A stretch of 64,000 bases of DNA from the NCBI RefSeq assembly GCF_000427445.1, contig NZ_KE386496.1:2433504-2497503 (forward strand), read 5' to 3'. Below, in pieces: positions 25,800 through 60,509 of the stretch. The translations under genes were made by a program, and so were the position numbers. The notes under the pieces are model-generated. The model was not told where the DNA came from and ran no database searches. It was given only the letters and a program-made list of their open reading frames with translations. The DNA comes from Methylocapsa acidiphila B2. Its GTDB lineage: Bacteria > Pseudomonadota > Alphaproteobacteria > Rhizobiales > Beijerinckiaceae. Within the stretch, counting starts at the first letter, position 1. Each line of letters starts with the position of its first letter.

Positions 25800-25876
25800 G
25801 CGCCCGTAGCTCAGCTGGATAGAGCACTAGACTACGAATCTAGGGGTCAGGAGTTCGAATCTCTTCGGGCGCGCCA
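25800..25876 (+). tRNA. tRNA-Arg(ACG)
   Basis: The 77-base cloverleaf is complete. The acceptor stem is GCGCCCG with CGGGCGC, the D arm is GCTC/GAGC, the anticodon arm is CTAGA/TCTAG with loop CTACGAA giving anticodon ACG, the T arm is AGGAG...CTCTT with TTCGAAT, and CCA is encoded. A mobile element appears to begin directly after its 3' end, so this is the likely chromosomal attachment site, with the tRNA left intact. Confidence 0.97.
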
Positions 25877-26401: not shown

Positions 26402-26611
26402 ATGCCGGATGAGATCCTGACCCTGGCGGAAGTGGCGCAGTTGCTGAAGGTCGCCGACAAGACAGTGTACACGATGGCCCAGCGCGGCGAGGTTCCCGCC
26501 TTCAAGGTCCGCGGACAGTGGCGCTTCAAGCGCGACGATCTCGACCAATGGATCGAGCAGAAGAAGCTATCCCAGCGCGACCACGACAAACCTGATGGCG
26601 GGCACGGATGA
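26402..26611 (+). CDS. Small excisionase-type helix-turn-helix protein
   Basis: The 69-residue protein begins at ATG 26402 (MPDEILTLAEVAQLLKVADKTVYTMAQRGEVPAFKVRGQWRFKRDDLDQWI is split here only as blocks LTLAEVAQLL, KTVYTMAQRG and WRFKRDDLDQWI). A GGAG site lies about 8 bases upstream. It is a MerR/excisionase-like winged helix domain (HTH_17 type) and nothing more. Such proteins act as recombination directionality factors or as repressors. Its 3' end overlaps the helicase gene by 17 bases, which argues that it is the first gene and likely regulator of the defence operon rather than a true excisionase. Confidence 0.82.
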   Translation: MPDEILTLAEVAQLLKVADKTVYTMAQRGEVPAFKVRGQWRFKRDDLDQWIEQKKLSQRDHDKPDGGHG

Positions 26612-29504: not shown

Positions 29505-29569
29505 GTGAAGACATGACACCATCACCACAGCTGGCCACGCGCAAGAAATCCACGGGGGAATTTGAATAG
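29501..29569 (+). CDS. 22-residue mini-ORF bridging the helicase and AIPR genes
   Basis: ATG 29501 overlaps the helicase stop (ATGA). The frame runs 22 codons (MSEDMTPSPQLATRKKSTGE then FE), and its TAG overlaps the AIPR GTG start (TAGTG). It therefore links the two large genes by stop-start overlaps at both ends. It may be a true micropeptide, a coupling leader, or a chance frame. The GGGGGA purine run near 29553 can serve the AIPR start. Confidence 0.35.
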   Translation: MSEDMTPSPQLATRKKSTGEFE

Positions 29570-31368: not shown

Positions 31369-33038
31369 CCAAAAAGCAGAAGCTCGAACTGACATGGGTT
31401 GGCAAGGAGAACCGACCTCGGCTGGAGCCGCGCATCCTGCTCGAGGATACAGCTAAGTCATATCACGCGTCGCATCGTGTCGGTGACGACGACATTTTCG
31501 ACAACCGACTAATCTTCAGTGACAATCTGCTTGCGCTGAAAGCGTTGGAGCAGGATTTCGCCGGTAAGGTAAAGTGCATTTTCATCGACCCGCCCTACAA
31601 CACTGGCAGCGCATTCGAGCACTATGACGACGGAGTCGAGCACTCAATCTGGTTATCGTTGATGCGAGACCGTCTGGAGATTATCCGGCATTTGCTTTCA
31701 GAAGATGGTTCACTATGGATCACCATCGACGATAACGAGGCGCACTATCTGAAAGTTCTTTGCGACGAAATATTCGGCCGTCGTAATTTCGTTGCTAACG
31801 TGGTTTGGCAAAAGGCCTATACAGCTAATCAGACTGCAATGCACATCTCGAATGTGCATGATCATATTCTTATCATCGCAAAAAATACCGAAGTTTTCCG
31901 TTTAGGGAAAGTTTCAAGAACCGAGGACCAAAAGGCAAAATTTAGAAACTATGACAATGATCATCGAGGAGCATGGAAGGCTGAAAATCTATCTGCGGGT
32001 AAGTTTTATGCAGCAGGACAGTTTGAAATCACCGGCCCTACGGGTTTGAAATTCCTTCCTCCGAAGGGCCGCTACTGGAGGTGTAACGAGGAGCAGTACC
32101 AGCGCTGGCTTGCAGATAAGCGAATAACTTTTGGGCTTTCTGGCACCGGGCGGCCGATGCTGAAAAAATTCCTCTCCGAGATGGACGACGGCCTTACTGC
32201 TACAACGTGGTGGACCCATGAGGAGGTAAGCAATAACAAGCAAGCTAGTATTGATCTGAAAAATCTCCTGCCCGACATTCCGATATTTCAAAACCCTAAG
32301 CCGGAGCAACTTCTCAGCCGAATAGTTGAATTAGCCACGGATCCAGGCGACCTCGTCCTTGACTCCTTCGCGGGCTCCGGCACCACCGGTGCAGTCGCTC
32401 ATAAAATGGGGCGGCGGTGGATCATGGTGGAGCTGGGCGAGCATTGCCACACACACATCATCCCGCGCCTGAGGAAGGTCATCGACGGCGAGGACAAGGG
32501 CGGTATCACCGCCGCTGTGGAATGGCATGGCGGGGGTGGGTTCCGGTATTTCAAGATCGCGCCGTCCTTGCTCGAGGTTGACCATTTTGGCCGGGAAGTT
32601 ATCAGCAAAGCCTACAACGCTGAGATGCTTGCCGAAGCATTGTGCAAGCTGGAGGGCTTCACCTACGCCCCGAGCGATAGCGTCTATTGGCAGCACGGGG
32701 CATCGACTGAGCATGACTTCATCTACGTGACGACGCAGACATTCAGTCAAGAGCAACTCGCCCATTTGAGCGACGAGGTCGGGCCGGATCGATCCCTGCT
32801 CGTGCTCTGCTCCGCGTTCCGGGGCAATCTGGCAGCGTTTCCGAATCTCACGGTCAAGAAGATTCCCAACCATGTCAGAAGCCGCTGTGAGTGGGGCCAT
32901 GACGACTACAGCCTGAACGTCGAGAACTTGCCTAAAGCTCCGCCGAAGGTTCCGAAGATGGACGCGCGAGAGGGAGAACTGTTTGCCGGGCTGTCTAAGC
33001 GGCAGACTGACCTGTTTGGCATTGAGGGGGGCAAGTGA
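31365..33038 (+). CDS. Type III-like Mod adenine DNA methyltransferase
   Basis: The protein has 557 residues. The catalytic motif IV DPPYNTGSAFEHYDDG (D75-Y78) precedes the SAM-binding motif I FAGSGTTGAVAHKMGRRW (about residues 334-351). This is the beta-class order of type III Mod and N6-adenine enzymes. The intervening stretch, about residues 145-300, is the expected target recognition domain and is visibly AT-richer than the two flanks. The C-terminal 180 residues carry Mod-like extensions. It should methylate a short recognition sequence to protect host DNA. It overlaps both neighbours by four bases. Confidence 0.92.
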   Translation: MTKKQKLELTWVGKENRPRLEPRILLEDTAKSYHASHRVGDDDIFDNRLIFSDNLLALKALEQDFAGKVKCIFIDPPYNTGSAFEHYDDGVEHSIWLSLMRDRLEIIRHLLSEDGSLWITIDDNEAHYLKVLCDEIFGRRNFVANVVWQKAYTANQTAMHISNVHDHILIIAKNTEVFRLGKVSRTEDQKAKFRNYDNDHRGAWKAENLSAGKFYAAGQFEITGPTGLKFLPPKGRYWRCNEEQYQRWLADKRITFGLSGTGRPMLKKFLSEMDDGLTATTWWTHEEVSNNKQASIDLKNLLPDIPIFQNPKPEQLLSRIVELATDPGDLVLDSFAGSGTTGAVAHKMGRRWIMVELGEHCHTHIIPRLRKVIDGEDKGGITAAVEWHGGGGFRYFKIAPSLLEVDHFGREVISKAYNAEMLAEALCKLEGFTYAPSDSVYWQHGASTEHDFIYVTTQTFSQEQLAHLSDEVGPDRSLLVLCSAFRGNLAAFPNLTVKKIPNHVRSRCEWGHDDYSLNVENLPKAPPKVPKMDAREGELFAGLSKRQTDLFGIEGGK

Positions 33039-35740
33039 TGAACCGTCATGTCAACGCCATCGCCGGCCGCCTGAGCCTTCGCCCGCCGCAGCGGCGCTCG
33101 CTCGAAATTCTCGACCGCATTTCCGAGATCGTTCCTCCGACGAAGGGGGGTGACCTGGACGCGGCGCTCGCGGCCATTCGCAGTGAGTTCCCAACCGTCG
33201 TGGACTTTGAGCGCGAATTTCCAAGCCTTTGCTTCGCGCTCGCCACAGGTGTCGGAAAGACCCGCCTAATGGGCGCGTTCATCGCTTACCTGCATCTCGC
33301 GCACGGTCTGAACAATTTCTTCGTGCTGGCCCCGAACCTGACGATCTACAACAAGCTGATCACCGACTTCACCCAGAACACGCCGAAGTACGTGCTCAAG
33401 GGCATTTCCGAGTTCGCCATCTCGCCGCCGGTCATTACGACCGGCGAGAACTATGAGAGGCAGATCGCGAGCGGCGGAAGCCTGTTCCCGGTCACGATCA
33501 ATATTTTCAACATCTCGAAGATCAATTCCGAGGTCCGCGGCGGGCGGTCGCCGAAAATCCGCAGCTTCAAGGAGGAAATCGGCGAAAGCTACTTCGAGTA
33601 TCTCGCCGGTCTCGACGACCTCGTTCTTATCATGGACGAATCGCACCGCTATCGCGCGTCGGCCGGCATCCGCGCCATCAATGAGCTGAAGCCGGTTATC
33701 GGCCTCGAACTGACGGCCACGCCCTTCGTCGAGACATCGCGCGGGCCGGTCCCGTTTCAGAACGTCATCTTCGACTATCCGCTTGGGAAGGCGATGGCCG
33801 ATGGGTTCGTGAAGGAGCCGGCAGTCGTCACGCGGGAGAACTTCTCCCCGATCGGAAAATCGCCAGAGTCGATCCAGCAGATCAAGCTCGAAGACGGGGT
33901 GCGCCTGCACGAGAGCGTCAAGGTCGAGTTGGAAACCTATGCGCGCCAGGTTGGCGAACGCATCGTCAAGCCGTTCATGCTGGTCATTGCCCGCGACACG
34001 ACACATGCCGCCGAGCTGATGCAGCTCATCAAATCCGACAGCTTTTTCGAAGGCCGCTATACGGACAAGGTCATCCAGGTCGATTCCAGCGTGAAGGAAG
34101 AGGAGACGATCGAGCGTCTGCTCAAGGTCGAGCACACGGAGGAGCCGACGGAGATCGTGATCCACGTTAACATGCTCAAGGAAGGTTGGGACGTCACCAA
34201 CCTCTATACGATCGTGCCGCTGCGCGCCGCCAACGCCCGCACGCTCATCGAGCAGTCGATCGGGCGTGGCCTTCGACTGCCCTATGGCAAGCGGACCGGC
34301 GTGACGGCCGTGGACCGGCTGAACATCGTGGCGCACGATCGCTTCCAGGAAATCGTCGACGAGGCGAAGAAACCTGACTCGGCGATCCGGCTCCAGCAGG
34401 TGATCCTTTCCAACGATCAGCTTCAGCAGAAGACGGTCACCGTCGTCTCCCAACCGCAACTTGCCTCGAAACTGGGGATTCAGTCTGACGGTGCGGCGCC
34501 TTCAGCGGCGAGCGGCTTTCACGAGGCGCAGTCGGTTTTCAACGCCGATGAACAGAAGATCGCCAAGATCGCCTACGACGTGATCCGGAAGTTTGAGACG
34601 CAGCCGTCACGGTTGCCGAGCGTCGGCCATCTTCAGAAGCCCGAGGTGCAGGCGGCACTCCTTCGCGAGGTCGAGAGCCAGTACCGGCCCGCACAGATGG
34701 AGTTGGATGGAATCTCAGGCCAACCCGACCTGGCCGCGATTGTTGCGAAGACCGCTGAAATCGTCGTCCAGCAGACCATCGACATCCCGCGCATCCTCGT
34801 GGTTCCGAAGGGCGAGGTGAAGTCGGGGTTCCGGCCGTTCACTCTCGATCTCGCTCGTATGAGGTATGAGGCGCCGAATGAAACGCTCTGGGCGGCCCAT
34901 CTGCGGACTGGCCAAATTGATCGGATCGGCGTGGGTGCCGGGACGATCGACGAACAGCGTCTTGAAGATTATGTGGTCAGCGGGCTCATCGACTTCGACG
35001 ACGTCGCCTACGACGAACACGCCGACCTTCTCTATGACTTGGCCGAGCAGGTCATCCGTCATTTTCTTTCATATCTCTCGGAAGAAGATGTGCGGAAGGT
35101 GCTGCGGCTCCATCAGAAGGAGATCGCCTGCTTCGTCCATGTCCAGATGCAGAAGCACTTCTGGCAGGACACGCAGGTCGCGTACGACGTCGTGATCACG
35201 CGAGGTTTCACTGAGCTTCGAAACAGCGCCTATACCGCCGCCGCTGACGAGGCGCCCCTCGATTTTCGTATCTCGCCGTCCGACAAAAGCAACATGTCGC
35301 GCTACCTGTTTGGCGGGTTTTCCCGCTGCCTCTACCCGACCCAGAAGTTCCAGTCCGATGCCGAGCGAAAGCTCGCAGTCGTGCTGGAGAGAGAGTCGCT
35401 CAAATGGTTCAAGCCGGCCAAGGGCCAGTTTCAGCTGTTCTATCGTAGCGGCATTGAGGACCTGGAATACCAGCCGGATTTCGTCGCCGAGACGGAGACG
35501 CGCATTTTCATGCTGGAGCCAAAGGCGTCGAATCAGATGGCGGTTCCGGATGTTCTCGCAAAACAAGAGGTTGCCATCGAATGGTGCCGCCGAGCGACTG
35601 ATCACGCCGCAACCTACGAGGGAAAACCATGGACCTATGTGCTCATTCCTCACGATGCCATTGCTGAGAATATGACGCTTGAGGGGCTCTCCCGGCAGTT
35701 TGCGGCGAAGGGGGGCGTTCACACCATGGAGCGGAGCTAA
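33035..35740 (+). CDS. Type III-like Res helicase-endonuclease
   Basis: The protein has 901 residues (GTG 33035 or ATG 33038). The Walker A motif is ALATGVGKTRLMG (T71-T76), motif II is LIMDESHRYRA (about 198-208), then ELTATPF. Motif VI is LIEQSIGRGLRLPYG (about 405-420). Near the C-terminus YQPDFVAETETRIFMLEPKAS (about 812-832) has a PD...ExK arrangement typical of type III Res nuclease domains. With the Mod upstream it should form a type III restriction enzyme, but the same operon also carries SNF2 and AIPR genes. It is the last gene of the operon and is followed by about 170 bases before the LysR gene. Confidence 0.92.
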   Translation: MMNRHVNAIAGRLSLRPPQRRSLEILDRISEIVPPTKGGDLDAALAAIRSEFPTVVDFEREFPSLCFALATGVGKTRLMGAFIAYLHLAHGLNNFFVLAPNLTIYNKLITDFTQNTPKYVLKGISEFAISPPVITTGENYERQIASGGSLFPVTINIFNISKINSEVRGGRSPKIRSFKEEIGESYFEYLAGLDDLVLIMDESHRYRASAGIRAINELKPVIGLELTATPFVETSRGPVPFQNVIFDYPLGKAMADGFVKEPAVVTRENFSPIGKSPESIQQIKLEDGVRLHESVKVELETYARQVGERIVKPFMLVIARDTTHAAELMQLIKSDSFFEGRYTDKVIQVDSSVKEEETIERLLKVEHTEEPTEIVIHVNMLKEGWDVTNLYTIVPLRAANARTLIEQSIGRGLRLPYGKRTGVTAVDRLNIVAHDRFQEIVDEAKKPDSAIRLQQVILSNDQLQQKTVTVVSQPQLASKLGIQSDGAAPSAASGFHEAQSVFNADEQKIAKIAYDVIRKFETQPSRLPSVGHLQKPEVQAALLREVESQYRPAQMELDGISGQPDLAAIVAKTAEIVVQQTIDIPRILVVPKGEVKSGFRPFTLDLARMRYEAPNETLWAAHLRTGQIDRIGVGAGTIDEQRLEDYVVSGLIDFDDVAYDEHADLLYDLAEQVIRHFLSYLSEEDVRKVLRLHQKEIACFVHVQMQKHFWQDTQVAYDVVITRGFTELRNSAYTAAADEAPLDFRISPSDKSNMSRYLFGGFSRCLYPTQKFQSDAERKLAVVLERESLKWFKPAKGQFQLFYRSGIEDLEYQPDFVAETETRIFMLEPKASNQMAVPDVLAKQEVAIEWCRRATDHAATYEGKPWTYVLIPHDAIAENMTLEGLSRQFAAKGGVHTMERS

Positions 35741-46819: not shown

Positions 46820-47707
46820 ATGTCTAGAAGCAACAGGTCTATGTTTCAATGGCTTTTTCCTATCGGGGAAGGTGAAGGACCAAGACGCCGAACGACAATC
46901 GCCGCCTTTTTCATCGGCATGACACTGCCCGCCATCGTAGACCTACTAGTCCAGCACACGGAGCAGTCCCTTCCTGGTGATTTGATGCAGTTGGTTGTCT
47001 CCGTCACAGCCGGAGCTGTGTTGACACTGCCACCGCTATTCTTCTTCTGTAAACCAAGGGATCCGGCCTTGAAATGGCCAACAGTTGTAATTGGCTTGGG
47101 TTACATAATGATGGCGGTACTTTATGCGCTGAAAATTCTCAGTACTTTGAATGTACAAGGTGCCGTGTTGTTTACTACAAAGATTGGATATGATCCATTA
47201 ACCGATGCTATTTCATCAATGATATTTGTCTATGCGTGGTTTTTGTTCTCACAGACAGAACCAGATCAGGGAACTAAAAGAACCGAACGTTTCATGATTT
47301 TCGTCATGTCCCTAGCTGTTCTCGTAAGCGGTGCATGGAAGTTTTTTGGCGACTGGCGTGACGATCAGCAAATGATCGCGATCGCTAGACGCGCACTGAA
47401 TTTCAGTAACGGTGCAGTTTTCCTTTGCTTATACACTCAAATGCTTCGGATATTACCGCCACCAGATCCCATCAGCCGCTTTATTATTCTTCTCTATGGC
47501 TGCGTTCAGATTGAAGCAGATATTCGAGATTGCTTAGGCGCCTGCTCAAACTTATCAGAGGACGCGGCTGCCATCATCGTCGGTTGGATCCTTGTGATGG
47601 GGAAAGTTTTATTTGCCCTTTATGTAGTCTACTGTTTTCTTGAGGCCAAGCTTATAAATAGAGACTATGGGAGTTCCCTAAGTGAGGTCGGTGTTACTCG
47701 TCACTGA
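46820..47707 (+). CDS. Polytopic membrane protein of unknown function (cassette gene 1)
   Basis: The 295-residue protein starts at ATG 46820 and has about eight hydrophobic segments, for example TIAAFFIGMTLPAIVDLLV, LMQLVVSVTAGAVLTLPPLF, WPTVVIGLGYIMMAVLYAL, FMIFVMSLAVLVSGAW and AAIIVGWILVMGKVLFALYV. No family is recognised. The gene is visibly AT-richer than the trb genes around it, which suggests separate arrival. It overlaps the start of the ATP-grasp gene by 26 bases, so the two belong together and probably act in one function. Confidence 0.75.
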   Translation: MSRSNRSMFQWLFPIGEGEGPRRRTTIAAFFIGMTLPAIVDLLVQHTEQSLPGDLMQLVVSVTAGAVLTLPPLFFFCKPRDPALKWPTVVIGLGYIMMAVLYALKILSTLNVQGAVLFTTKIGYDPLTDAISSMIFVYAWFLFSQTEPDQGTKRTERFMIFVMSLAVLVSGAWKFFGDWRDDQQMIAIARRALNFSNGAVFLCLYTQMLRILPPPDPISRFIILLYGCVQIEADIRDCLGACSNLSEDAAAIIVGWILVMGKVLFALYVVYCFLEAKLINRDYGSSLSEVGVTRH

Positions 47708-49004
47708 TTCGATCTATCCGAAGACCAAAAGGCATATCGAAAAAATCCGGTCTCTAATTGGAGACGATCGACTTTCTGTCTTGTTGATTCGGGATAAGGG
47801 AGATCCTTTTTTTCAAAGAACGGGCGAGTACCTCAGCGATCTCGAAGTGTTGATCGAGGAGGTCGACTCACTAGAATCGCTTTACCGGTTTTTCGCGTCG
47901 AACACGACGCCAGCTGACGAAATATCTGTCTTGGCGCTGAACCAATCCGCCCTCCTCCCGGGATTGGCAGTGTTGGCGGTGCTGGGGCGATCGTTTCGAC
48001 CCGGAATACTGGAGTCGTGTGACAAAGGTATCATGCGGTCCAGGCTTCAACCGGTTCCGAATCTAAGATTGGACCACTACGTCGTTCTTGGCGACGACGT
48101 GCCACCAGCACGCGCGCCATTTGAGCCAGGCCCCTACATTGTGAAACCCTGCCTTGGTACGAGCAGCCGCGATGTTTACCGGGCACAGAGTTGGGACGAG
48201 ATCCGCCGGGTCATTCCCCTCTGGCAGGGATCCTGTAAATGGCTTCCTGACTGGATCGGAGCGTTGCTAGGTCTGACAAGGCCTTCAATTGGCGCGTTTA
48301 TCGTAGAGCGTTTCATCGAGGGAACCGAGTTTTCAGTTGACGGCTGGATCGGTGATGACTTCGATGCGATTGTACAACAAAAGCTTTGGACTTTTGAACA
48401 GCCATTCTTTGGGGATGGCCTCACAATTTCTCCTCCTGCCTGCTCTGCCTGTCTGCCGGCGGATTACAATGCTCTGAAGACTCGCGAGGACAACATTGTT
48501 TACTTTGCGAGATCCATTCTCGAGGCAATTGGGTTGCGGAATGGCGTCTTCCACATCGAAGGCCGCGAATGTCGATCGAGCGGTGCGCTGCGCCTGATCG
48601 AGGTGAATCCCCGCGCCCCAGGCGGATCGTTATGGAGATCCGCTCTCCTGCGAATGAATTGCGACCTCGAATTGATGGATGCGGCGCTTCAGCTCGGTTA
48701 CCCTTACCCAAAGTTGGCGGACGCTCCCGCTAAGCACGTACTGCATTATCCATTTTACGCCATGCAAAGCGGAACGCTACAGGACTGGGGTGGTCTGGAC
48801 GGACCCTTCAGGCTGCCTAACCTCAAGATCGACAAAGTCGCCACTTTGAAGCAATCTTTCTACTCAGATCGCGTTCGGGAAGAGGCTTACCTTGCTTTTG
48901 CGGTGACGCACGATGACACTCTTGAGGCTCTCCTGGCTCAAGGACAAGAGATCCTGCGTCTTCGTCGCCCACAAATCCTCCAAAACCCACTCATGGGGAC
49001 CTAG
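47682..49004 (+). CDS. ATP-grasp domain ligase (cassette gene 2)
   Basis: The 440-residue protein starts at GTG 47682, preceded by GGGAG. The ATP-grasp fold is visible: GPYIVKPCLGTSSRDVY (ATP-binding lysine), FIVERFIEGTEFSVDGWI (central strand), and RLIEVNPRAPGGS (metal-binding Glu/Asn). Overall it resembles carboxylate-amine ligases of the carbamoyl-phosphate-synthase-like or peptide-ligase group. The substrates are unknown. With the overlapping membrane protein it may make and export or insert a small peptide-like or modified product; that is inference. Confidence 0.8.
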   Translation: MRSVLLVTDSIYPKTKRHIEKIRSLIGDDRLSVLLIRDKGDPFFQRTGEYLSDLEVLIEEVDSLESLYRFFASNTTPADEISVLALNQSALLPGLAVLAVLGRSFRPGILESCDKGIMRSRLQPVPNLRLDHYVVLGDDVPPARAPFEPGPYIVKPCLGTSSRDVYRAQSWDEIRRVIPLWQGSCKWLPDWIGALLGLTRPSIGAFIVERFIEGTEFSVDGWIGDDFDAIVQQKLWTFEQPFFGDGLTISPPACSACLPADYNALKTREDNIVYFARSILEAIGLRNGVFHIEGRECRSSGALRLIEVNPRAPGGSLWRSALLRMNCDLELMDAALQLGYPYPKLADAPAKHVLHYPFYAMQSGTLQDWGGLDGPFRLPNLKIDKVATLKQSFYSDRVREEAYLAFAVTHDDTLEALLAQGQEILRLRRPQILQNPLMGT

Positions 49005-51906: not shown

Positions 51907-52782
51907 TCAGAACGATAGGCCTCGGCCTACAAATCGATTCAGAACATCCGCGACTGCTTCTTCGCCAAAGCCTGTGTTGAAGACCGGCTTCCTGGGCAGG
52001 ATCAGCAGGGAAATGGTGGCGTCGTAGCGGTCGGCGAAAATGGTCATCTCGCGAACGGGTTCGAAGCGCCGCCAGACGCCTGGACCCAGTTCAACGCCGA
52101 CCGGTCCTGGTTGGGCCGCGGGGCCCAACGCCGCAAGGGAGCCGCCGGGCAGCTCCATGCCCGTCTCGAAGAAGACGCCGGACTTCTTCGCGGCGTCGCT
52201 GCGCCGGCCCCAAAGGACGTTGCCGTCGCGGGCGTAGATCAGGACGGCGCGCTCCTCGGTGAACTGGATCCACTTCAACGCCGCGGCCGTGAAGGAGACA
52301 CGGTAGCGATCCGCGCAATGGCCGAGCAGGTCGAGCGTCATGATCTGATCGGCAATCTGGGCCCGATAGTCGGTGATGGGCATCAGCAGATAGGAGGCGA
52401 ACTCATCGGCCTCCTTCTCCAGCCGGCGAGCCGCTGCGTCGGCATCGAAGCCCAAGACGGCTTGGGCGGAGCATTGGAATCCCATCGCGCGAAGATGGCG
52501 ATGGTTGAGGTAATGCCCAAGCTCGTGACCGAGGGTGAAGTTGATGCGGCCCAGTACGTCGACCTCGGGATTGTAGAGGATCGCCCATTCGCCGCTCTTG
52601 GGCAGAGGAAACAGAGCGCCCTCGAAGGCCTGGCCGACAGGGGCGGCCTTCACGTCTCGGATCGGATCCGGGAAACGTTTAGAGTACTCGAGCGCGATCG
52701 TCCGCACATCGACGGGGAACCGATCACCCCAGACGGTGACCAGGAAGTTCGCCCAGGCGATGGGAGAGGTCGGCTCGCGCAT
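51907..52782 (-). CDS. ImmA/IrrE family metallopeptidase
   Basis: From ATG 52782 (MREPTSPIAWANFLVTVW) the protein has about 291 residues. The zinc motif is LGHELGHYLNHRH (HExxH at about residues 86-90), followed by a downstream glutamate region RRLEKEADEFASYLLMP. ImmA-type peptidases cleave or inactivate partner repressors. The XRE gene upstream overlaps or abuts it (a TTG start at 52788 would overlap), so the pair resembles the ImmR-ImmA switch of ICEBs1 and phages. It may release repression of the divergent ubiquitin-like operon. Confidence 0.9.
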   Translation of the reverse strand: MREPTSPIAWANFLVTVWGDRFPVDVRTIALEYSKRFPDPIRDVKAAPVGQAFEGALFPLPKSGEWAILYNPEVDVLGRINFTLGHELGHYLNHRHLRAMGFQCSAQAVLGFDADAAARRLEKEADEFASYLLMPITDYRAQIADQIMTLDLLGHCADRYRVSFTAAALKWIQFTEERAVLIYARDGNVLWGRRSDAAKKSGVFFETGMELPGGSLAALGPAAQPGPVGVELGPGVWRRFEPVREMTIFADRYDATISLLILPRKPVFNTGFGEEAVADVLNRFVGRGLSF

Positions 52783-52784
52783 GC

Positions 52785-53108
52785 TCAATCGTCATCCAGC
52801 AGTTTCAGGATTTCGGCGATCTTGGTCTTCACGTCCGGACTGGCACCCTGGTACTTGCGGAAGAAAGCCTCGTCCCGCTCGTCGACCGTGGCTTCCGTAC
52901 GATTCTTGTCCAACAAGTACTCCGGCGTGACGCCGAGCACGGCGGCGATCTTGTTGATCTTTTCGGCCGATGGCCTGGCCGTAGGCTTATTCTCCAATTC
53001 CCAAAGGTAGCTCTTGCTGGCTTCGGCCTGCGCAGCGAGCTCCTCCAGCGACAGGCCCTTTTCCTTTCTCAGTTCTCGAAGTTTTCGCCCCATGGCGGAT
53101 GACGGCAT
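52785..53108 (-). CDS. XRE-family HTH repressor
   Basis: The 107-residue protein has an N-terminal XRE domain: GRKLRELRKEKGLSLEELAA, QAEASKSYLWELENKPTARP and KINKIAAVLGVTPEYLL. A charged tail (DERDEAFFRKYQGASPDVKTK) follows. The start is ATG 53108 or ATG 53093. It is transcribed divergently from the multiubiquitin gene across about 157 bases that contain a perfect 12-bp palindrome, a likely operator. Confidence 0.9.
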   Translation of the reverse strand: MPSSAMGRKLRELRKEKGLSLEELAAQAEASKSYLWELENKPTARPSAEKINKIAAVLGVTPEYLLDKNRTEATVDERDEAFFRKYQGASPDVKTKIAEILKLLDDD

Positions 53109-53153
53109 AGACGCGCTCCATGGCTACATCCGCGTGGCAGGCAGCGGACAAAT

Positions 53154-53165
53154 TCGGTATACCGA
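53154..53165. promoter_or_regulatory. Palindrome TCGGTATACCGA, candidate XRE operator
   Basis: This is a perfect 12-bp palindrome in the gap between the divergent XRE and multiubiquitin genes, 46 bases upstream of the XRE start. Only a single copy was found. Position and symmetry suggest binding by the XRE dimer. Confidence 0.4.
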
Positions 53166-53177
53166 CCATTATCGTAC

Positions 53178-53209
53178 TTGACAAGCGGATTTCAGAATAC
53201 CAATATAAA
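53178..53209 (+). promoter_or_regulatory. Candidate promoter of the multiubiquitin operon
   Basis: TTGACA at 53178-53183 is a perfect -35 box. AT-rich CAATATAAAA (53201-53210) follows with TATAAA at 53204, a 20-base spacing that is longer than ideal; CAATAT at 53201 gives 17. It ends about 56 bases before the multiubiquitin start. Confidence 0.4.
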
Positions 53210-53265
53210 ACCGTTCGGCACTCCGAATGGCGCGGTGCCGGTCAGAGTATCCGCGGAGATCCATT

Positions 53266-53976
53266 ATGAGCATCATCGAGATTGCCGACGAAGCCCCGGC
53301 TAAGCCCGGGGACCATGAAATCGACGTCGCTAACGACCGCTTCGAAACGCGGACGTTGACCTTGGAGCCCGCCCACGCGACCGGGCAGGGTCTGATCCAG
53401 GCCTTGGGGTACGAGCCGGCCGAGGCCTACATCGTACTGCGCTACCGGCCCGATGGGTTTCTCGAGGAGATAGGTCTGGAAGAGCCGATCGATCTGACCG
53501 AGCCGCGCGGGAACAGCTTCTTTGTCAACGAGGCCTCGGAGATGGCCAATCTGGCCATCGGAGGGGTGCGGCTCACCTGGACGCAGAGCGTGGTCACCGG
53601 TTGGACAGTGAGGCATCTGGCCCGCCAGGCTGACAGCGATCTCGAAGTTGTCTTAGAGCGTGAGAATGAAGCCCCGGTCGTCATCGGGGATGAGGACGAG
53701 GTCCGGCTCAGTCGTCCTGGCCTGGAGCGGTTCCATCTGCGTCCGCCCACCGAGGTCACCATCGAAGTGAACGGCCAACCCGTGAAAATCCGCCGCGGGC
53801 GTCGCACCGGCGGGGAAATCAAGGCGGCTGCCATCGACCAAGGCGTGAAGATCCAAGCCAGCTTCACCCTCTCCGCGGATTTGCCCGGCGATTCCAAGCT
53901 GATCGGCGATACCGATCACGTGCGGATCAAGGGCGGCGAAAAGTTCCTTGCCATCGACGACCACGATGACAGCTAA
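53266..53976 (+). CDS. Multiubiquitin domain protein (three ubiquitin-like folds)
   Basis: From ATG 53266 (GGAG upstream) the protein has 236 residues. Three consecutive beta-grasp-like units can be seen at about residues 20-85, 88-155 and 160-228. Each ends with a hydrophobic strand followed by an aromatic residue (NSFFVNEA, ERFHLRPP, EKFLAIDDHD). This is the multiubiquitin (Multi_ubiq) architecture, which occurs in operons with E2, E1 and JAB genes. The chain ends GGEKFLAIDDHDDS, so no free di-glycine tail is present. It is presumably the modifier protein or its precursor. An E2 gene follows after 10 bases. Confidence 0.85.
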   Translation: MSIIEIADEAPAKPGDHEIDVANDRFETRTLTLEPAHATGQGLIQALGYEPAEAYIVLRYRPDGFLEEIGLEEPIDLTEPRGNSFFVNEASEMANLAIGGVRLTWTQSVVTGWTVRHLARQADSDLEVVLERENEAPVVIGDEDEVRLSRPGLERFHLRPPTEVTIEVNGQPVKIRRGRRTGGEIKAAAIDQGVKIQASFTLSADLPGDSKLIGDTDHVRIKGGEKFLAIDDHDDS

Positions 53977-53986
53977 GGAGGCGGTC

Positions 53987-54394
53987 ATGAAGCCGGAGGT
54001 CGAGAAAGCGGTCGCGGCTATCCAGAACCATTATGCGTCGCTGTGCGTGGAAGTGTTTGAGAGCGCCTGCGGCGGCGCCTATGTGCTGATCCACGAAGTT
54101 CCCCTCGGGTCGCCTTACGCACAGGCGACAACCTGGATCGGCTTCTTCATCACCAACGCCTGCCCGTTCGCCGATACCTATCCTTTCTACGTTCGGCATG
54201 ACCTGTCGCGGCGGGATGAGGCGGCGCTAAAGGTTCCCCTGCACATCAACAACAGCTGGGCGCCCCAGCTGCCCGGCTTCACCGCGCGGCCGGCCGTCAT
54301 GGTCTCTCGCCGCCAGAACCACACCCATTGTTGGGGTCTCGAGACCCCGCTCCTCAAGCTGCAGAAGGTGATCGCGTGGATGCTCAAGCAATAG
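53987..54394 (+). CDS. Prokaryotic E2-like protein (E2/UBC family)
   Basis: A TAAGGAGG site sits just before ATG 53987; the product has 135 residues. The core block ATTWIGFFITNACPFADTYPFYV and the C-terminal LETPLLKLQKVIAWMLKQ fit prokaryotic E2-type proteins found next to multiubiquitin genes. Cysteines are at about residues 20, 28, 59 and 115; which one could carry the thioester is not clear. It should pass the ubiquitin-like protein from E1 to a target. It is followed by the JAB-E1 gene after about 20 bases. Confidence 0.72.
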   Translation: MKPEVEKAVAAIQNHYASLCVEVFESACGGAYVLIHEVPLGSPYAQATTWIGFFITNACPFADTYPFYVRHDLSRRDEAALKVPLHINNSWAPQLPGFTARPAVMVSRRQNHTHCWGLETPLLKLQKVIAWMLKQ

Positions 54395-54414
54395 GTTGTG
54401 GTTGGTCGCTGCGC

Positions 54415-55004
54415 ATGACGCAGTTCCTCTACGATGATCTGCACGCCCATCTGTTTCCAGGCGACGGAGACGAGCACGGCGCCGTGATTGAGGCGGGCCT
54501 AGCGACACTCGGCGGTCGTCAGGTGTTGCTGGCGCGACGGCTCTGGAAAGCGGCCGGCGGAGTCGATTGGTTGCCAGGCACGCGCGGCTATCGAATGATG
54601 CCAGCCGCCTATGTCACCCGCCGCATTCGAGATTGCCGCGCCCAGAGGCTCGTCTATCTCGCCGTCCACAATCACGGCGGACGAGGATCCGTTGCCTTTT
54701 CTAGCGTGGATCTCGCGACGCACGAGCGCGGATTTCCGGCGCTGCTGGATGTGATGAAGGGGGTTCCAGTCGGCGCCTTGGTATTCGCCGAGGACGCCAT
54801 CGCCGGAGATATCTGGACGTCCGACGGCCGACGGCATGTCCTGCAAGAGGCCGTCGTGGTGGGACCTACGCGGCGACGGCTAACGCCGGTGCCGGATCTC
54901 CACGGCTATGGTGTCGATACGCGCTTTGACCGTCAGGTCCGCCTATTCGGCGAGCGCGGTCAGGCGGTCCTTGGCAGAGCCAAGATCGCGATTGTGGGCC
55001 TGGG
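54415..55004 (+). pseudogene. JAB-E1 fusion, 5' part (JAB peptidase domain and E1 start), interrupted by IS21
   Basis: From ATG 54415 the frame encodes a JAB/MPN isopeptidase domain with an upstream glutamate (about residue 20) and the zinc motif AVHNHGGRGSVAFSSVD (H85, H87 and D99). It continues into the start of a ThiF/E1 nucleotide-binding domain: YGVDTRFDRQVRLFG then KIAIVGLG. There it meets the IS21 element, which adds an out-of-context tail. The JAB domain may still be made as a truncated protein. In intact relatives the JAB part trims or removes the modifier and the E1 part activates it. Confidence 0.85.
54998..55004 (+). repeat. Left copy of the 7-bp target duplication (GCCTGGG)
   Basis: GCCTGGG occurs directly before the IS21 left end and again directly after its right end. 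It falls inside the codons for the E1 GLGG turn, so the duplication marks insertion into an intact gene. Confidence 0.85.
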
Positions 55005-55210
55005 TGCGCGCCGACAATTAAACTGTCCGGTTCAACGACAACTATCTTGGCCGGTAAGGTCGTCCGCCAGCGCCGGTTGAAGGGAGGGGCGAGCCCCCGA
55101 CCGGAGATCGGCGCTGGCGGACGACGGCGCTGTTAAACTCCCTTCTGGGGGCATCTGCCGCTCGGCGTCGAGGGTGGTATCGCGGCTCAATCAACCAAAG
55201 ATTGAGCTCG

Positions 55211-56725
55211 ATGCCGAACCCTCATATTTCCGACAGACAGGTGATGCGCTACATGGCTTCGCGTTCACAGCACCATAATCAGGCAGCCGCCGCGGCAATG
55301 GCCGGCATCAGCGAGCGCTCAGCGCGCCGCATTGACAAAGATCCGCGTTTTCCGTCCCAGAAGAAGCAGCCGCGAACTTGGCGAACCCGCCCGGATCCAC
55401 TGGAGACTGTCTGGCCGCGGGTTCTGGAGATGCTCAAAATCCCCGGCATCATGGCGGTGACGATTTTCGAAGAGCTCCAGGATGAGCTCGGCGCCGAGGT
55501 TCTCCCAGACAGCGTCCGCCGGACGCTTGAACGCCGCATCGCCAAATGGCGCGCCCTTCACGGCGCGGACAAGGAGGTTTTCTTCCCTCAACGCCATGAT
55601 CCCGGCCGCCAGGCATTGTCCGATTTCACCGTCGCCGACAGCCTCGGGGTCACCATCGTCGGCGAGCCCTTGCCGCATCGCCTTTATCATTTCCGGCTGG
55701 CCTTCAGCGGTTGGGAGCACGCGCAAGTGATCCTTGGAGGCGAGAGCTTTTCAGCCGTCGCCGAGGGGCTGCAAGATGCGCTTTGGAAGCTCGGAGGCGT
55801 CCCGGAAGAGCATCGGACCGACTCGCTGTCGGCCGCCTTCAAAAATCTTGACCGTGACGCCCAGCTCGATTTCACCAAGCGTTATGACGAGCTGTGCCGG
55901 CATTACGGCATGAAGGCGACCCGTAATAATCCAGGCGTGGCCAATGAGAACGGGAGCATCGAGGCGGCCAACGGCCATATCAAGATCCGCCTCGACCAAA
56001 GGCTCCGGCGGCGGGAGAGCCGAGATTTCGTCAGCCTTGAAGCCTACCGCGCCTTTGTCGACGGCGTCTGCAGCCGTTACAACGCCCGTTGCGCGACGCT
56101 CGTCGCGATCGAGCGCGAGAAGCTCGAGCCCTTGCCCAAGCGCCGGACGACCGACTTTGCTACGGTGACGGTGAAAGCGACGCGCAATAGCACCATCAAT
56201 GTCGATCGAGTCATCTACTCCGTCCCGTCTCGCCTGATCGGACACATGATCGAGGTGCATCTCTTCGACGATCGGCTTGAATGTTTCCTTGGGCCGGATC
56301 CGGTCATGCGCATGGCGCGGGTGAGAACGGACGGCAAGCGCGCCCACTCCATCAATTATCGTCACCTGATCGGCTCGCTCCGGCGCAAGCCGCAAGCCCT
56401 TCGATATCTCGTCTATCAAGAAGCTCTCTTCCCGAGCGCCCCATATGCCCGTTCGTGGGCGGCTCTCGACGCCGGCTTGGCCCCCAGGCATGCATGCCGA
56501 ACCATGGTCGGATTGCTCGTTCTGGCAGCATCCGGCGAAGCCTGCGAGACGGCTTTGGCCGCCCGGCTCGACGCCATCCTTGACGCAGGCCTGCTACCCG
56601 ACCTCGGCGAGCTCAAAAAGGAATTCCAGACCGCGCCACATCAGTCCCGCGACGTCACCATCCCTCCGCCAAACCTCGATGACTATAATCTGCTGCTGCC
56701 TTCCGCGTGCGAGGTGCGGCCATGA
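55211..56725 (+). CDS. istA: IS21-family transposase IstA
   Basis: From ATG 55211 the protein has 504 residues. An N-terminal HTH region is followed by the DDE catalytic core: Asp in LSDFTVADSLG, Asp in HRTDSLSAAF and Glu in NENGSIEAANGHIK. The beta-barrel domain later includes VIYSVPSRLIGHMIEVHLFDD. It catalyses transposition. The stop overlaps the istB start (ATGA). Confidence 0.95.
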   Translation: MPNPHISDRQVMRYMASRSQHHNQAAAAAMAGISERSARRIDKDPRFPSQKKQPRTWRTRPDPLETVWPRVLEMLKIPGIMAVTIFEELQDELGAEVLPDSVRRTLERRIAKWRALHGADKEVFFPQRHDPGRQALSDFTVADSLGVTIVGEPLPHRLYHFRLAFSGWEHAQVILGGESFSAVAEGLQDALWKLGGVPEEHRTDSLSAAFKNLDRDAQLDFTKRYDELCRHYGMKATRNNPGVANENGSIEAANGHIKIRLDQRLRRRESRDFVSLEAYRAFVDGVCSRYNARCATLVAIEREKLEPLPKRRTTDFATVTVKATRNSTINVDRVIYSVPSRLIGHMIEVHLFDDRLECFLGPDPVMRMARVRTDGKRAHSINYRHLIGSLRRKPQALRYLVYQEALFPSAPYARSWAALDAGLAPRHACRTMVGLLVLAASGEACETALAARLDAILDAGLLPDLGELKKEFQTAPHQSRDVTIPPPNLDDYNLLLPSACEVRP

Positions 56726-57495
56726 CCGACACGACCATTCTTCCTTCCTTGCTGGCCACCCTTCGGCTGCCCAGCATCGCCCGCAATTGGAAGCGGATCA
56801 CCGAGGTCGCCAATCGAGATGGATGGTCGGCCGAGAAGCTGCTTGCCACGCTGATGGAGATCGAAGTCACCGAGCGGGCGTCACGGCGCATCCAGCGCTA
56901 TCGTGATCAGTCCGAAGCGCCAGCCGGAAAAACCTTCGCCAGTTTCGACTTCAAGGCCGCGCCGGGCGTGCGCAAGCAGCACCTTTTGGCGCTGGGCGCC
57001 GGCGGAGACTGGATCAAGGATGGCGACAATCTCTTGGTTTTTGGTCAAAGCGGCACCGGCAAAAGCCATGCCCTGGCGGCCATATGCCATACGCTCATTG
57101 ATGCTGGAACCCGGGTTTTATTCAATCGAACCATCGACATCGTTCAACGGCTGCAGATCGCGCGCCGTGACCTCTCCTTGGTCAGCGCCCTCGAGAAGCT
57201 CGACAAGTATGATCTCATCGTGCTCGACGACCTCTCGTATGTTCGAAAAGATCAAGCCGAGACCAGCGTCTTGTTCGAACTCATCGCGCATCGATACGAA
57301 CGCCGCAGCATCGCCATCACCGCCAATCAGCCATTTTCGGCTTGGTGCGAGGTTTTTCCAGATGCCGCAATGACCGCGGCGGCCGTCGATCGATTGGTCC
57401 ATCACGCAACCATCATCGAGATGAATGGCGACTCTTACCGAAAGCGCTCCGCTGTCCGCAGAACAACGAAGGAAGAACCCGGCGCATCGGAATAG
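56722..57495 (+). CDS. istB: IS21-family helper ATPase IstB
   Basis: From ATG 56722 the product has 257 residues with an AAA+/DnaC-like fold. Walker A is LLVFGQSGTGKSHALAAI and Walker B is YDLIVLDDLSYV. Near the end, IAITANQPFSAWCEVFPD is a family hallmark. It chooses the target and activates IstA. Confidence 0.95.
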   Translation: MTDTTILPSLLATLRLPSIARNWKRITEVANRDGWSAEKLLATLMEIEVTERASRRIQRYRDQSEAPAGKTFASFDFKAAPGVRKQHLLALGAGGDWIKDGDNLLVFGQSGTGKSHALAAICHTLIDAGTRVLFNRTIDIVQRLQIARRDLSLVSALEKLDKYDLIVLDDLSYVRKDQAETSVLFELIAHRYERRSIAITANQPFSAWCEVFPDAAMTAAAVDRLVHHATIIEMNGDSYRKRSAVRRTTKEEPGASE

Positions 57496-57721
57496 CCATG
57501 CGCGGCCAAACACCCTCGCATGATGGAAACATAATCGCCGGCCACAGAGCGTCTGCCAACATAAACCCGTGCTTTGATCAGCGACAGTTAATGTAGTTGT
57601 CGCTGCGCTAACCTGTTGCCAAACGACAATTAGATTGATACCTCTATCAGCGCTACTCGACGATGGCCCCTGCCGGCCAGTTTAATTGTCGATGACCGGC
57701 CATCATAATTGTCGTGTGTCA

Positions 57722-57728
57722 GCCTGGG
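57722..57728 (+). repeat. Right copy of the 7-bp target duplication (GCCTGGG)
   Basis: This is the second GCCTGGG, directly after the IS21 right end. Joining 55004 to 57729 rebuilds the E1 glycine-rich loop without a frame change. Confidence 0.85.
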
Positions 57729-58554
57729 TGGCGTTGGCACCTTGCTCGCCGAGTACTTGGGTCGTTTGGGGGTCGGCGAGATCGTCCTGGTCGATCCAGA
57801 CTATGTCGATCCCACCAATCTCCCGCGCTTGGTGGAGGCAACAAGTTGGGACGCCATGAGCTGGCTCGTCGCTCCGAATCGCCCATCGTGGATCCGCGCC
57901 GTCGGTCGGCGTCTCGCCACGCCGAAGGTGCGCCTGGCTACCCGGATCATCCGAAAGGCGAATTCGCGAGTCCGGGCCCGGCCGTTTCAGACGGATATGG
58001 AAGATGCGGCGGCGCTCGAGGCGATCAAGGGCTGTGACTACGTCTTTCTCGCTGCGGACAGCCATAGGGCACGGCTGCTGTTCAACGCGCTGGTCCATCA
58101 GTTCCTGATCCCCGGCGTGCAGCTTGGCTCGCGCATCCGGTCCGACGCCGCGACCGGCGCGTTAGAGCATGTGCACACCGTGGTCCGATGGGTATTGCCT
58201 GACTGCGGTTGCCTCGTCTGCAACCAGGCGATCAATCCGGCGCGCCTGCAGGAAGAGAGCATCTCGGCCACCATGCGGGCGCGTCAGAAATACACTGACG
58301 ATCCCGATATCGTAGCGCCTAGCGTTATCACTTTGAACGCCATGGCGGCCGCGCAAGCTGCCAACGACTTCTTGTTTTACATGACTGGCCTAGCTCGCCC
58401 TGACGCCTTCGACGGCTATGTGCGGTCCCATCCGTTGCGCCGCCGTCTGGAGATGCTGGTGCCACGCAAGGATACGGCTTGCCCGGACTGCGGCGCCTCG
58501 AGCGAAAGCCGGTTTGCGCGCGGCGACTGCGCCGCGTTGCCTTTGGTTGATTGA
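57722..58554 (+). pseudogene. JAB-E1 fusion, 3' part (E1/ThiF domain), cut off by IS21
   Basis: The frame resumes after IS21 with LGGVGTLLAEYLGRLGVGEI followed by VLVDPDYVDPTNLPRL, the ThiF/E1 adenylation domain. It then has a region of cysteine pairs (PDCGCLVCNQ) and a second pair near the end (CPDCGASS), which can bind zinc. No start codon with a ribosome site precedes it except one inside the IS end, so it is probably not made. Fused with the 5' part it gives about 471 residues. Confidence 0.85.
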
Positions 58555-58791
58555 CCGACCCCTTGTCAGGTGACAGCTAGAGTACGTTCGTCGTCCAAAG
58601 CCCCGACTTTATGAGGAAGTCCAGGCTGCGCAGGCGTTCAAGCCGGTCTGATAGCCGTAGGACGCGCCGTATACAGCTCAGCGCAGTCCCTCGTTGCGTC
58701 GGGCCAAAGGAACGCAAATTACAATGACACCTTGACGCGAATCTTTTGTTCTCTATATGTTCTGACACCAGGCCATGCGGATGTTGGAAAA

Positions 58792-59013
58792 ATGCACGAT
58801 TCCAAAATCAAATATTTTGATCGGCCGAGTTGCAGACACTGTAATCACAAGTGGTTGCCGGGCCATGGCAAAGTTGATGGTGTTGAATACTGCAATAAAT
58901 GCTCAGATAATCGCAAGGTCCACGCCAATTCGGTCTTGGAAAACCGGATATTGAAAGCTTCAGATTTCCTTGGAAATTATCTCTTGCCGCGGCGAATGAG
59001 GCCAGGCCGCTAA
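58792..59013 (+). CDS. Small zinc-ribbon protein, unknown function
   Basis: From ATG 58792 the product has 73 residues. Two cysteine pairs, SCRHCNHKWL and YCNKCSDNRK, form a zinc ribbon. The N-terminal and C-terminal parts have no known motif. Base composition is AT-richer than the ubiquitin-like genes before it. Its end overlaps the kinase gene on the other strand by four bases. It could belong with the kinase module. Confidence 0.5.
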   Translation: MHDSKIKYFDRPSCRHCNHKWLPGHGKVDGVEYCNKCSDNRKVHANSVLENRILKASDFLGNYLLPRRMRPGR

Positions 59014-60044
59014 GTTTGAGATTCGAAGAATTTCGTCAATTCCTTCAGAGCAGCGCTTCTTGTTAGCGGCTTCGTTGATCCGCCAAGTGTGCGGTTGATA
59101 CCGCTTCCCAATGGCTCGCTCCAAGCCTTCCATTTGGACTTCTTGGGTATTGAGATATCCCATACCACTGAGATTTTCCGTGTTTTCGAGTTGCGTTGCC
59201 ACCGCACTTCAGTCGGCCCAACTACGCAAAGCCAGCTCGGTTGCGAGGGAAGCGAACTTAGCGCCGCGAAGACGTCGGTCGCCGTCTGGTGGCGCTGAAC
59301 GGGATCATCGCGAAGCATCTTTCTGATCGGGCGACGCCAATCGGCTGGAATATGTGGCAACCAGACGAGTGAATCGGCGTATCTGCCGTTAGCGACGACA
59401 GTTCTTGGCGTCGACCCTTGTTCATACCATTGACGGCCATGAAGGAGTCGATACAGCGTCATGCCTAACGCCCAGATGTCAGTCTTAGCGCTGGTGCCGT
59501 TTCCCGCCCAAACTTCCGGGGCAATGTGGTCGGCGTATCCAGCTTGCGAGCCATAACCAAGAATGAGATTGTCTGTGACAAGACCGAAATCTCCGAGCTG
59601 GGCAACCCCCTTCGAGTTGATTAAGAGGTTCCCCGGCTTAATGTCTCGGTGGAGCATTTCGCGGCTATGAAGTGCCTGAAGCCCTGACGTAATCTCCGTT
59701 GCCACCCTCAAGACCTTATCGATCGATATGGGTCCATTGTCGTATGGTTTCTGGAGAGAACCACCGCTGCAATACTCCATTACACAGAGCATCGCATCGT
59801 CCTTGTGTTCACCCAAGTGGTAAACTTGCACGACATTGCGATGGGTCGCCTTTTTGAGGTGCTGAGCCTCCTTCAGCAAATTATCTTTTCTCTTCTGCCA
59901 TTCTTCGGGCGATTCCGTTGCGTCCCGAGCGATCACTTTGACGGCAACTTCCCCGTGAACGGGGTCGTTGGCAAGAAATACGTCCCCGAAATGACCCGAG
60001 CCGATGTGCGTACCCATTTTAAGATTGGAGGTGAGGACTGTCAT
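59010..60044 (-). CDS. Eukaryote-like Ser/Thr protein kinase
   Basis: The 344-residue kinase has all the catalytic elements: glycine loop GSGHFGDVF (about residues 15-23), lysine in VAVKVIA (K36), HRDIKPGNLL (about 132-141), DFG (152-154) and the APE-like IAPEVWAG. No membrane helix is visible, so it is cytosolic. The C-terminal 90 residues have basic, tryptophan-containing stretches of no known family. It lies three bases after the 153-residue gene, so they form a pair. Kinases of this kind recur in phage-defence islands; that role here is inference. Confidence 0.9.
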   Translation of the reverse strand: MTVLTSNLKMGTHIGSGHFGDVFLANDPVHGEVAVKVIARDATESPEEWQKRKDNLLKEAQHLKKATHRNVVQVYHLGEHKDDAMLCVMEYCSGGSLQKPYDNGPISIDKVLRVATEITSGLQALHSREMLHRDIKPGNLLINSKGVAQLGDFGLVTDNLILGYGSQAGYADHIAPEVWAGNGTSAKTDIWALGMTLYRLLHGRQWYEQGSTPRTVVANGRYADSLVWLPHIPADWRRPIRKMLRDDPVQRHQTATDVFAALSSLPSQPSWLCVVGPTEVRWQRNSKTRKISVVWDISIPKKSKWKAWSEPLGSGINRTLGGSTKPLTRSAALKELTKFFESQT

Positions 60045-60047
60045 TAC

Positions 60048-60509
60048 CTAGTCCTTTGCCGCAAGCAGTAGCAGCGCAGCATCACGACTGCCTGCTCTTA
60101 ATGCCACGCCCGCGATCGCCGTCGTCCAGAAGCCGTCGTCTCTTACATACTCGTCGAATTTGCGCGAACCAAATGTCTTGCTGATCTGAGCCTTCGCAAT
60201 GGTCGAGACCTCCGTCGCTGACGCGGCGGCAGCCATGACAACGCCCCGAAGTTCGGCGGCGTCTAGATGGCTTTTACCCGAACCGCTTTGGGATACTGCG
60301 CTGGCTTTGATGACGACACGGCCTATCTTGTGGTTGGAGATATAGTCTGAGACCTGGCCATGTACGACCGCGTACGCTGCGGCCCGGTCGCCCTTTTGAA
60401 GTTTTAGCGTCTGGTCAGACTTTATCAGCAATGGTTTCCCTGTTTCCACTGAAGCATCTACCAGCGTGATTCTGTCGCCCGAAACGGCGATACCTACCCA
60501 ACGTTCCAA
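60048..60509 (-). CDS. Possible RNase H-fold (DUF3010-like) protein paired with the kinase
   Basis: The 153-residue protein begins MERWVGIAVSGDRITLVDAS, a GIxxSGxxxxLV strand-turn-strand as at the start of RNase H-fold proteins. It continues with GRVVIKASAVSQSGSGKSH and a helical C-terminal half (ELRGVVMAAAASATEVSTIA, then ISKTFGSR). The overall pattern reminds me of DUF3010-type small proteins, but conserved acidic catalytic residues are not clear. It may be a kinase substrate or partner. It sits directly upstream of the kinase gene. Confidence 0.55.
   Translation of the reverse strand: MERWVGIAVSGDRITLVDASVETGKPLLIKSDQTLKLQKGDRAAAYAVVHGQVSDYISNHKIGRVVIKASAVSQSGSGKSHLDAAELRGVVMAAAASATEVSTIAKAQISKTFGSRKFDEYVRDDGFWTTAIAGVALRAGSRDAALLLLAAKD

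Follow-up and report, generated by a model that had tools for sequence, protein, structure and literature searches.

Our analysis of a 64,000 nucleotide stretch of the Methylocapsa acidiphila B2 genome (contig NZ_KE386496.1, positions 2,433,504 to 2,497,503; hereafter the window) did reveal an operon for ubiquitin-like protein conjugation. It very probably belongs to the Bub (bacterial ubiquitination-like) kind, has a CapH+CapP switch, is carried as cargo by an integrative and conjugative element (ICE) and was switched off by a recent insertion of an IS21-family element. As originally predicted, genes for a multiubiquitin protein, an E2-like protein and a JAB-E1 fusion lie in one run on the plus strand; they were recognised by PF14452, by the BubB-like structure model of the second protein, and by JAMM and ThiF signatures in the third. 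The glycine loop of the E1 domain is cut by a 2717-bp element between two GCCTGGG repeats, again in agreement with that prediction, which had overlooked the divergent capH-capP pair (51907-53108) next to the operon. The features are given below in window positions.

51907-52788, minus strand: capP, M78/ImmA-IrrE metallopeptidase with intact HELGH (PADLOC capP E 3.3e-61; PF06114 E 2.6e-13)
52785-53108, minus strand: capH, helix-turn-helix (HTH) repressor, 4-bp overlap with capP (PADLOC capH E 3.8e-31; HTH_19 E 1.8e-13)
53109-53265: gap separating the divergent genes capH and bubA, presumed to hold promoter and operator
53266-53976, plus strand: bubA-like multiubiquitin (ubiquitin-like, Ubl) gene (PF14452 E 5.4e-24; 9d59 E 1.1e-16)
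53987-54394, plus strand: bubB-like gene with E2 fold, conserved cysteine absent (AlphaFold2 model and Foldseek; start codon predicted from sequence)
54376 (GTG) or 54415 (ATG) to 55004, plus strand: 5′ part of bubCD with JAB domain, first strand and beginning of the E1 glycine loop (JAMM positions; BubCD profile)
54998-55004: target-site duplication GCCTGGG, left copy
55005-57721, plus strand: complete IS21-family element, 2717 bp, TG..CA ends (exact second copy; third copy 100% identical over 2714 bases)
55005-55080, plus strand: element-derived tail and stop codon on the frame of the JAB fragment (open reading frame 54328-55080)
55202-56725, plus strand: istA transposase (NF033546 E 8.9e-66, above cut-off)
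56722-57495, plus strand: istB helper ATPase (NF038214 E 1e-76, above cut-off; PF01695 E 1.1e-60)
57722-57728: target-site duplication GCCTGGG, right copy
57722-58554, plus strand: 3′ part of bubCD with the remaining E1 (adenylation) domain and CxxC...CxxC (ThiF E 3.8e-23)

The insertion and the break in the E1 domain

Two more copies of the element were found on a 186,693-bp contig of the same genome, each 100% identical to the one in the window (2714 query bases matched). One of them is an exact full-length match with its own 7-bp duplication CAGAAGC, and the other lies on the opposite strand between copies of ATCGGAT, a 7-bp duplication that was read by eye. Since both copies have duplications of their own, the element has truly transposed and is no chance repeat. 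The identity among the element copies suggests that the insertion is probably recent, and so do the other frames of the operon, all of which are open in the window.

When the element and one repeat are removed, the codons rejoin in frame and the ATG at 54415 gives, by coordinate arithmetic, 471 residues, the approximate length that had been predicted. The frame of the JAB fragment as it stands reads on into the element and stops at 55080. The break falls within the glycine loop, whose glycines are invariant in all 73 rows of relatives that cover it. The element parts the first strand and the glycine loop from the rest of E1, so that no complete ATP-binding/adenylation site is encoded. The upstream genes, the regulator and the JAB domain are intact in the window copy, with all five JAMM positions (E, H, H, S, D) kept. 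At the right end of the element (57450-57800) no promoter-like site was predicted on the plus strand, and a terminator-like hairpin on that strand (57664-57679; 0.3 expected by chance) lies ahead of the E1 remainder.

Relatives of the interrupted gene

The two halves were searched separately, and never joined, against 75 proteins, namely the fusion of Mesorhizobium huakuii (L001) and 74 from a genome scan. They map side by side on 74 of them, when the residue of the duplicated target is counted twice; the sole exception (L131) has an internal deletion of its own. The scan matched 414 stretches with 84 relatives, of which 80 were kept. JAB and E1 occur in a single frame in 73 of the 80, a figure to be read with the bias toward fused forms that comes from scanning with a profile of fused proteins and with patterns from their JAB part. 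A relative was counted as fused when one frame spanned the profile (485 positions) from no later than position 60 to at least position 395. Seven were not counted: L114, L126, L128 and L130 have two overlapping frames, the L122 frame ends at about residue 292, L127 reaches a contig end, and L131 has its deletion. The view that both halves come from one E1 domain, and that JAB and E1 form one gene in homologues, is therefore borne out. A Ubl gene was found in 75 and an E2-like gene in 78 of the 80 relatives, and the order Ubl, E2-like, E1 in 75. In DUF6527-type Bub operons the JAB fusion is absent in the annotation.

An uninterrupted copy of the operon had been proposed as a check. Intact fused relatives were indeed found and the junction could be aligned to them; an uninterrupted close sister copy, or an ICE with an empty site, was not among 397 genomes of the same family, where the next-best E1 match, from the same genus (G507), is 46% identical. 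Viral contigs, scanned with the JAB-E1 alignment, yielded no relatives among 23 pattern matches. At one locus of Rhizobium sp. 16-488-2b (L054) a JAB-E1 fusion 72% identical to the M. huakuii protein has no Ubl or E2-like match in the 5 kb upstream.

Assignment of the operon proteins

A profile of eight intact JAB-E1 relatives matches Citrobacter BubCD in the Protein Data Bank (PDB) over both domains (E 1e-38). For the E2-like protein Pfam gave nothing above cut-off, and NCBIfam and PADLOC gave nothing at the limits used; even at E 1, NCBIfam matched neither this protein nor the Ubl protein. The structure prediction suggested earlier was more informative: the AlphaFold2 model from 70 sequences has a predicted local distance difference test (pLDDT) score of 94.2, and Foldseek matched it to Citrobacter BubB (9eae_C, E 5.2e-5, probability 1.00), the sole PDB match at E 0.001 or better among the best 50 of 195 matches up to E 10. 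The underlying alignment holds 69 of 78 loci, a length filter having left 73, from which L071, L086, L113 and L128 were excluded. Among solved multi-ubiquitin proteins the Ubl protein of the window is closest to 9d59, with a weaker match to BilA (8u38, E 3.1e-8).

Conserved features of the clade

The five JAMM residues are present in all 73 rows that cover them as well as in the window. The only invariant cysteines of E1 are those of two CxxC pairs, as in a zinc site, found in 74 of 74 aligned relatives and in the window; the next column has 56 of 74. Among the 70 E2-like sequences no column with a residue in the window holds more than 11 cysteines, and the invariant residues are G35, P65, Y70, P71 and S112. 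The Ubl proteins (77 sequences: 75 loci, the window and L001) end in Ser in 73 cases and in DDNS in 66; the window protein ends in HDDS. With no conserved catalytic cysteine and a modifier that ends in Ser, the classical cysteine relay and the Gly-Gly tail are not conserved in this clade, and the survey makes both points testable. Oxyester intermediates have reportedly been proposed for Bub and would fit, and were not used as evidence here.

The CapH+CapP controller

The genes capH and capP adjoin the operon and diverge from it, and the HExxH motif of the peptidase is intact. According to PMC13373217, CapP is a protease activated by single-stranded DNA, with the repressor CapH as its substrate, and CapW or CapH+CapP occur in 219 of 544 Bub operons. 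By analogy, the pair in the window is likely a DNA-damage switch of the kind known from other Bub operons. Between capH and bubA there are only weak imperfect inverted repeats (17 nt at 76%, 12 nt at 83%) and one promoter-like site, on the minus strand; a 10-bp palindrome (53155-53164) was seen by eye and not listed by the repeat search. Stronger inverted repeats occur in the corresponding gap of two relatives (L025:5128-5187 and L060:3687-3758, with 13 bp perfect and 21 bp at 90%) and are candidate CapH operators.

For the relatives we used our own profiles of capH and capP, built from four sequences each. Both genes were found divergent and within 3.5 kb upstream in 26 of the 80 relatives, and at least one match on either strand in 63. 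The latter is an upper figure, since lone HTH matches from our capH profile (L063, L067, L055) are not called capH by PADLOC. In three of the 26 pairs that were run through PADLOC, both genes were recognised twice (L082, L084) and only capP once (L060).

Proposed mechanism and alternative readings

In an intact copy, by analogy with the described controller, single-stranded DNA would activate CapP, CapP would cleave CapH, and bubA-bubB-bubCD would then be transcribed. Going by the respective protein families, the multi-ubiquitin protein would be adenylated at its C-terminus by the E1 half of BubCD, transferred to targets with the help of BubB, and cleaved from them again by the JAB half. In the window copy conjugation would fail at the first step, with the modifier left unactivated. 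Recent loss of E1 activity is the simplest reading of a complete element with identical copies and an exact 7-bp duplication, as had been predicted, and we favour it over a role of the JAB domain alone; the lesion stands in the DNA, and its functional consequence is what we infer. The window would then hold a Bub operon that is naturally E1-null, with regulator, modifier, E2-like protein and JAB domain retained, and the broken copy suggests that the Bub cargo is dispensable to the element that carries it. An anti-phage function, which the original prediction assumed, is not established for Bub, whose protection against phage has not been demonstrated according to PMC13373217.

Several points weigh against this interpretation. 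Both the inactivation and the working of an intact copy are read from sequence, and the insertion is known from one genome of the species. The E1 remainder might be translated from a TTG at 57709, which lies in the element end. The best relatives are about 60% identical to the halves in the window, so that functional detail is carried over from distant proteins. Sequence searches link the E2-like protein to BubB weakly, at E 0.004 with 8 sequences and at E 0.05 with 70. Finally, the first CxxC pair of the window clade has no cysteine counterpart in Citrobacter BubCD, the second pair lying outside the alignment, and the window clade is therefore not identical in build to the studied one.

It had also been suggested that the truncated JAB piece took on a new role, and we found no evidence for this. 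In such a case the insertion would have made a new gene set without E1, in which the JAB fragment serves as a stand-alone deconjugating peptidase or as a regulator. The fragment keeps its JAMM residues and is still read from the operon start, JAB is a separate gene in Bil systems, and the locus from Nostoc sp. WHI (L122), where Ubl, E2-like protein and JAB are kept and the E1 frame ends early, leaves some room for a JAB-only role. That locus, however, is one of 80 and may equally be a decayed gene. Moreover, of the E1 fold the JAB fragment has a bare first strand, it terminates in the element-derived tail, and an element identical to its sister copies leaves no visible time for selection on the fragment. 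We consider such a role quite unlikely.

It is highly unlikely that the halves are made as separate polypeptides that reassemble into a working split enzyme: both half frames are open and the TTG offers an alternative start, but the split lies inside the glycine loop and not between domains, there is no plus-strand promoter-like site at the right end of the element, and the hairpin precedes the E1 remainder. That the operon is a Bil or CBASS-type system and not Bub, for which one could name the common Ubl, E1 and JAB parts as well as weak matches, partial ones to PADLOC E1-E2 models and the one to BilA, is extremely unlikely, as none of the four operon proteins matched a PADLOC Bil model at E 0.01 when the same library finds BilA, BilB, BilC and BilD at a control locus (L135), no CD-NTase model is among the matches listed for the ten proteins scanned, and E1 has no E2 fusion. 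Type II of CBASS (cyclic oligonucleotide-based antiphage signalling system) is defined by a CD-NTase and an E2-E1 fusion (Cap2). Of the related systems that the original prediction offered, Bub thus fits, and Bil and CBASS type II do not.

A M78-UvrD-nuclease module in relatives

Three close relatives (L001, L055, L057) lack a capH/capP pair ahead of the operon and have in its place a same-strand gene for a protein of about 1120 residues that Pfam resolves into a fusion of M78 peptidase, UvrD helicase and PD-(D/E)XK nuclease (L001:4033-7386). Such fusions beside Bil or Bub operons were found at the following loci.

M78-UvrD-nuclease fusion beside Bil/Bub operons: L001, L055, L057, L135-L138, L141-L149, L151-L154, L156, L157

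Relatives of the fusion were taken at E 1e-100 or better. Sampling 385 genomes of the class gave four with such a relative, and 398 genomes of the phylum gave five; some genomes were drawn in both samples, none of them among the nine with the fusion. A ubiquitin-like operon lies directly downstream on the same strand in all nine: two are Bil-like, three of the DUF6527 type, one is a JAB-E1 Bub operon, and three combine multiubiquitin with an E1 of another subfamily. L145, one of these nine, and L055 are from a single Caulobacter genome. Out of 92 plasmid records 13 were inspected, namely the query's own, six high-ranking ones and six from a spread list of 12 rows; this is not a random draw, and four Acinetobacter rows of the spread list were left out. 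The operon is directly downstream in ten of the 13 (L001, L135-L138, L151-L153, L156, L157) and divergent from the fusion in L154, which gives 11 with an adjoining operon. In Pseudomonas koreensis p2 (L150/L158) an IS66 insertion separates the helicase module from a putative E1 gene, and L155 is a fragment with no operon. In L135 all four genes of the Bil operon were matched by PADLOC.

The HExxH motif and the Walker A motif AGPGTGKT are each present at 16 of 16 loci, and the four cysteines of the nuclease part are kept in at least 16 of 17 rows; a stop interrupts the copy in L137. Ahead of the fusion there is often an HTH gene together with one of about 190 codons. An upstream HTH-type gene related by BLAST to that of L001 or L138 was found in seven of the nine genomes and nine of the 13 plasmid loci. 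Sigma-70 region 4 (Pfam) is above cut-off in the HTH genes of L001 and L135 and below it in that of L138.

The M78-UvrD-nuclease fusion is thus a possible controller or effector; domains, motifs and adjacency are observed, and the control function is putative. There seems to be an even chance that Bil, DUF6527-type Bub and JAB-E1 Bub share a pool of interchangeable front ends, among them CapH+CapP and the module of HTH protein, protein of about 190 residues and M78-UvrD-nuclease fusion, with the latter sensing damaged or phage DNA. The module might unwind or resect such DNA and then release the operon by proteolysis. If this is true, a helicase-nuclease with a built-in peptidase would be a candidate for how Bil and Bub pathways are switched on. 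A general claim for the fusion is weakened by the search itself: a query taken from a Bub locus and a strict threshold favour ubiquitin-like neighbours. The module is apparently undescribed, and its novelty is not proven: a literature search that excluded the papers defining Bub and Bil returned no description of it. In the available part of PMC13373217, UvrD appears only as E. coli uvrD strains and the word helicase does not appear; that of PMC1779556 has neither word.

The ICE and neighbouring genes

The prediction that the operon is ICE cargo is supported by type IV secretion system (T4SS) genes, a coupling-protein gene, a relaxase gene and a tRNA-Arg gene in the window. The relaxase has PF03432 and DUF3363 in Pfam, and NCBIfam RlxS is below its cut-off. 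The following further features were observed.

25800-25876: tRNA-Arg
26595-35740: defence-like cluster past tRNA-Arg, with a DrmD-like SNF2 helicase, an AIPR/AbiU-like protein, a type III methyltransferase and a type III restriction enzyme
46820-49004: stretch from the T4SS genes to the coupling-protein gene, with an ATP-grasp protein and a protein of 295 residues that has no Pfam match
58732-59013: small frame of 93 codons with two CxxC pairs and no Pfam match, just past the broken E1 gene
59010-60044, minus strand: serine/threonine kinase like the PADLOC Mad6 and PD-T4-6 kinases
60048-60509, minus strand: protein of 153 residues with no family above cut-off, adjoining the kinase gene

The last two genes, which lie between the bub operon and the relaxase gene, may form a possible further defence unit. 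The genome also carries a strong match to PF02461, the methane/ammonia monooxygenase family (E 2.4e-109), and the host is probably a methane oxidiser.

Comparison with known systems

The element in the window is an ordinary member of the IS21 family, in which istA, istB, TG..CA ends and 7-bp duplications are all present. The controller likewise showed no difference from the known CapH+CapP pair of an HTH repressor and an M78 peptidase with overlapping genes divergent from the operon. Bil (BilABCD) shares the common gene logic of Ubl, E2, JAB and E1, but has JAB as a separate gene.

An arrangement almost identical to that in the window was described by Iyer et al. in 2006 (PMC1779556, Table 1, row 6e) from proteobacteria, cyanobacteria and actinobacteria, with a polyUbl, an inactive E2/RWD-like protein, a JAB domain fused to E1 and a metal-binding protein; in contrast to the window, a divergent capH/capP pair is unmentioned in the available part of that paper. 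No metal-binding gene of row 6e was identified at the window operon, the 93-codon frame not having been compared with it. The name Bub was given to the family of such pathways, with 544 operons, as stated in PMC13373217, whose CapK and CapS accessions correspond to the two genes ahead of a DUF6527-type multiubiquitin operon among our loci (L029). The JAB-E1 form goes by the Bub name in the PDB entries as well, and the kind of operon is thus already known. Judged by its sequence, the window operon is a Bub operon close to row 6e of Iyer et al. With the Bub pathway of Citrobacter, represented by BubB and BubCD (PDB 9ea4, 9ea5, 9ea8, 9eae, 9eav), it shares the E2-like protein, the JAB-E1 fusion and a Ubl of the multi-ubiquitin type, and it differs in that the E1 gene is broken in the window.

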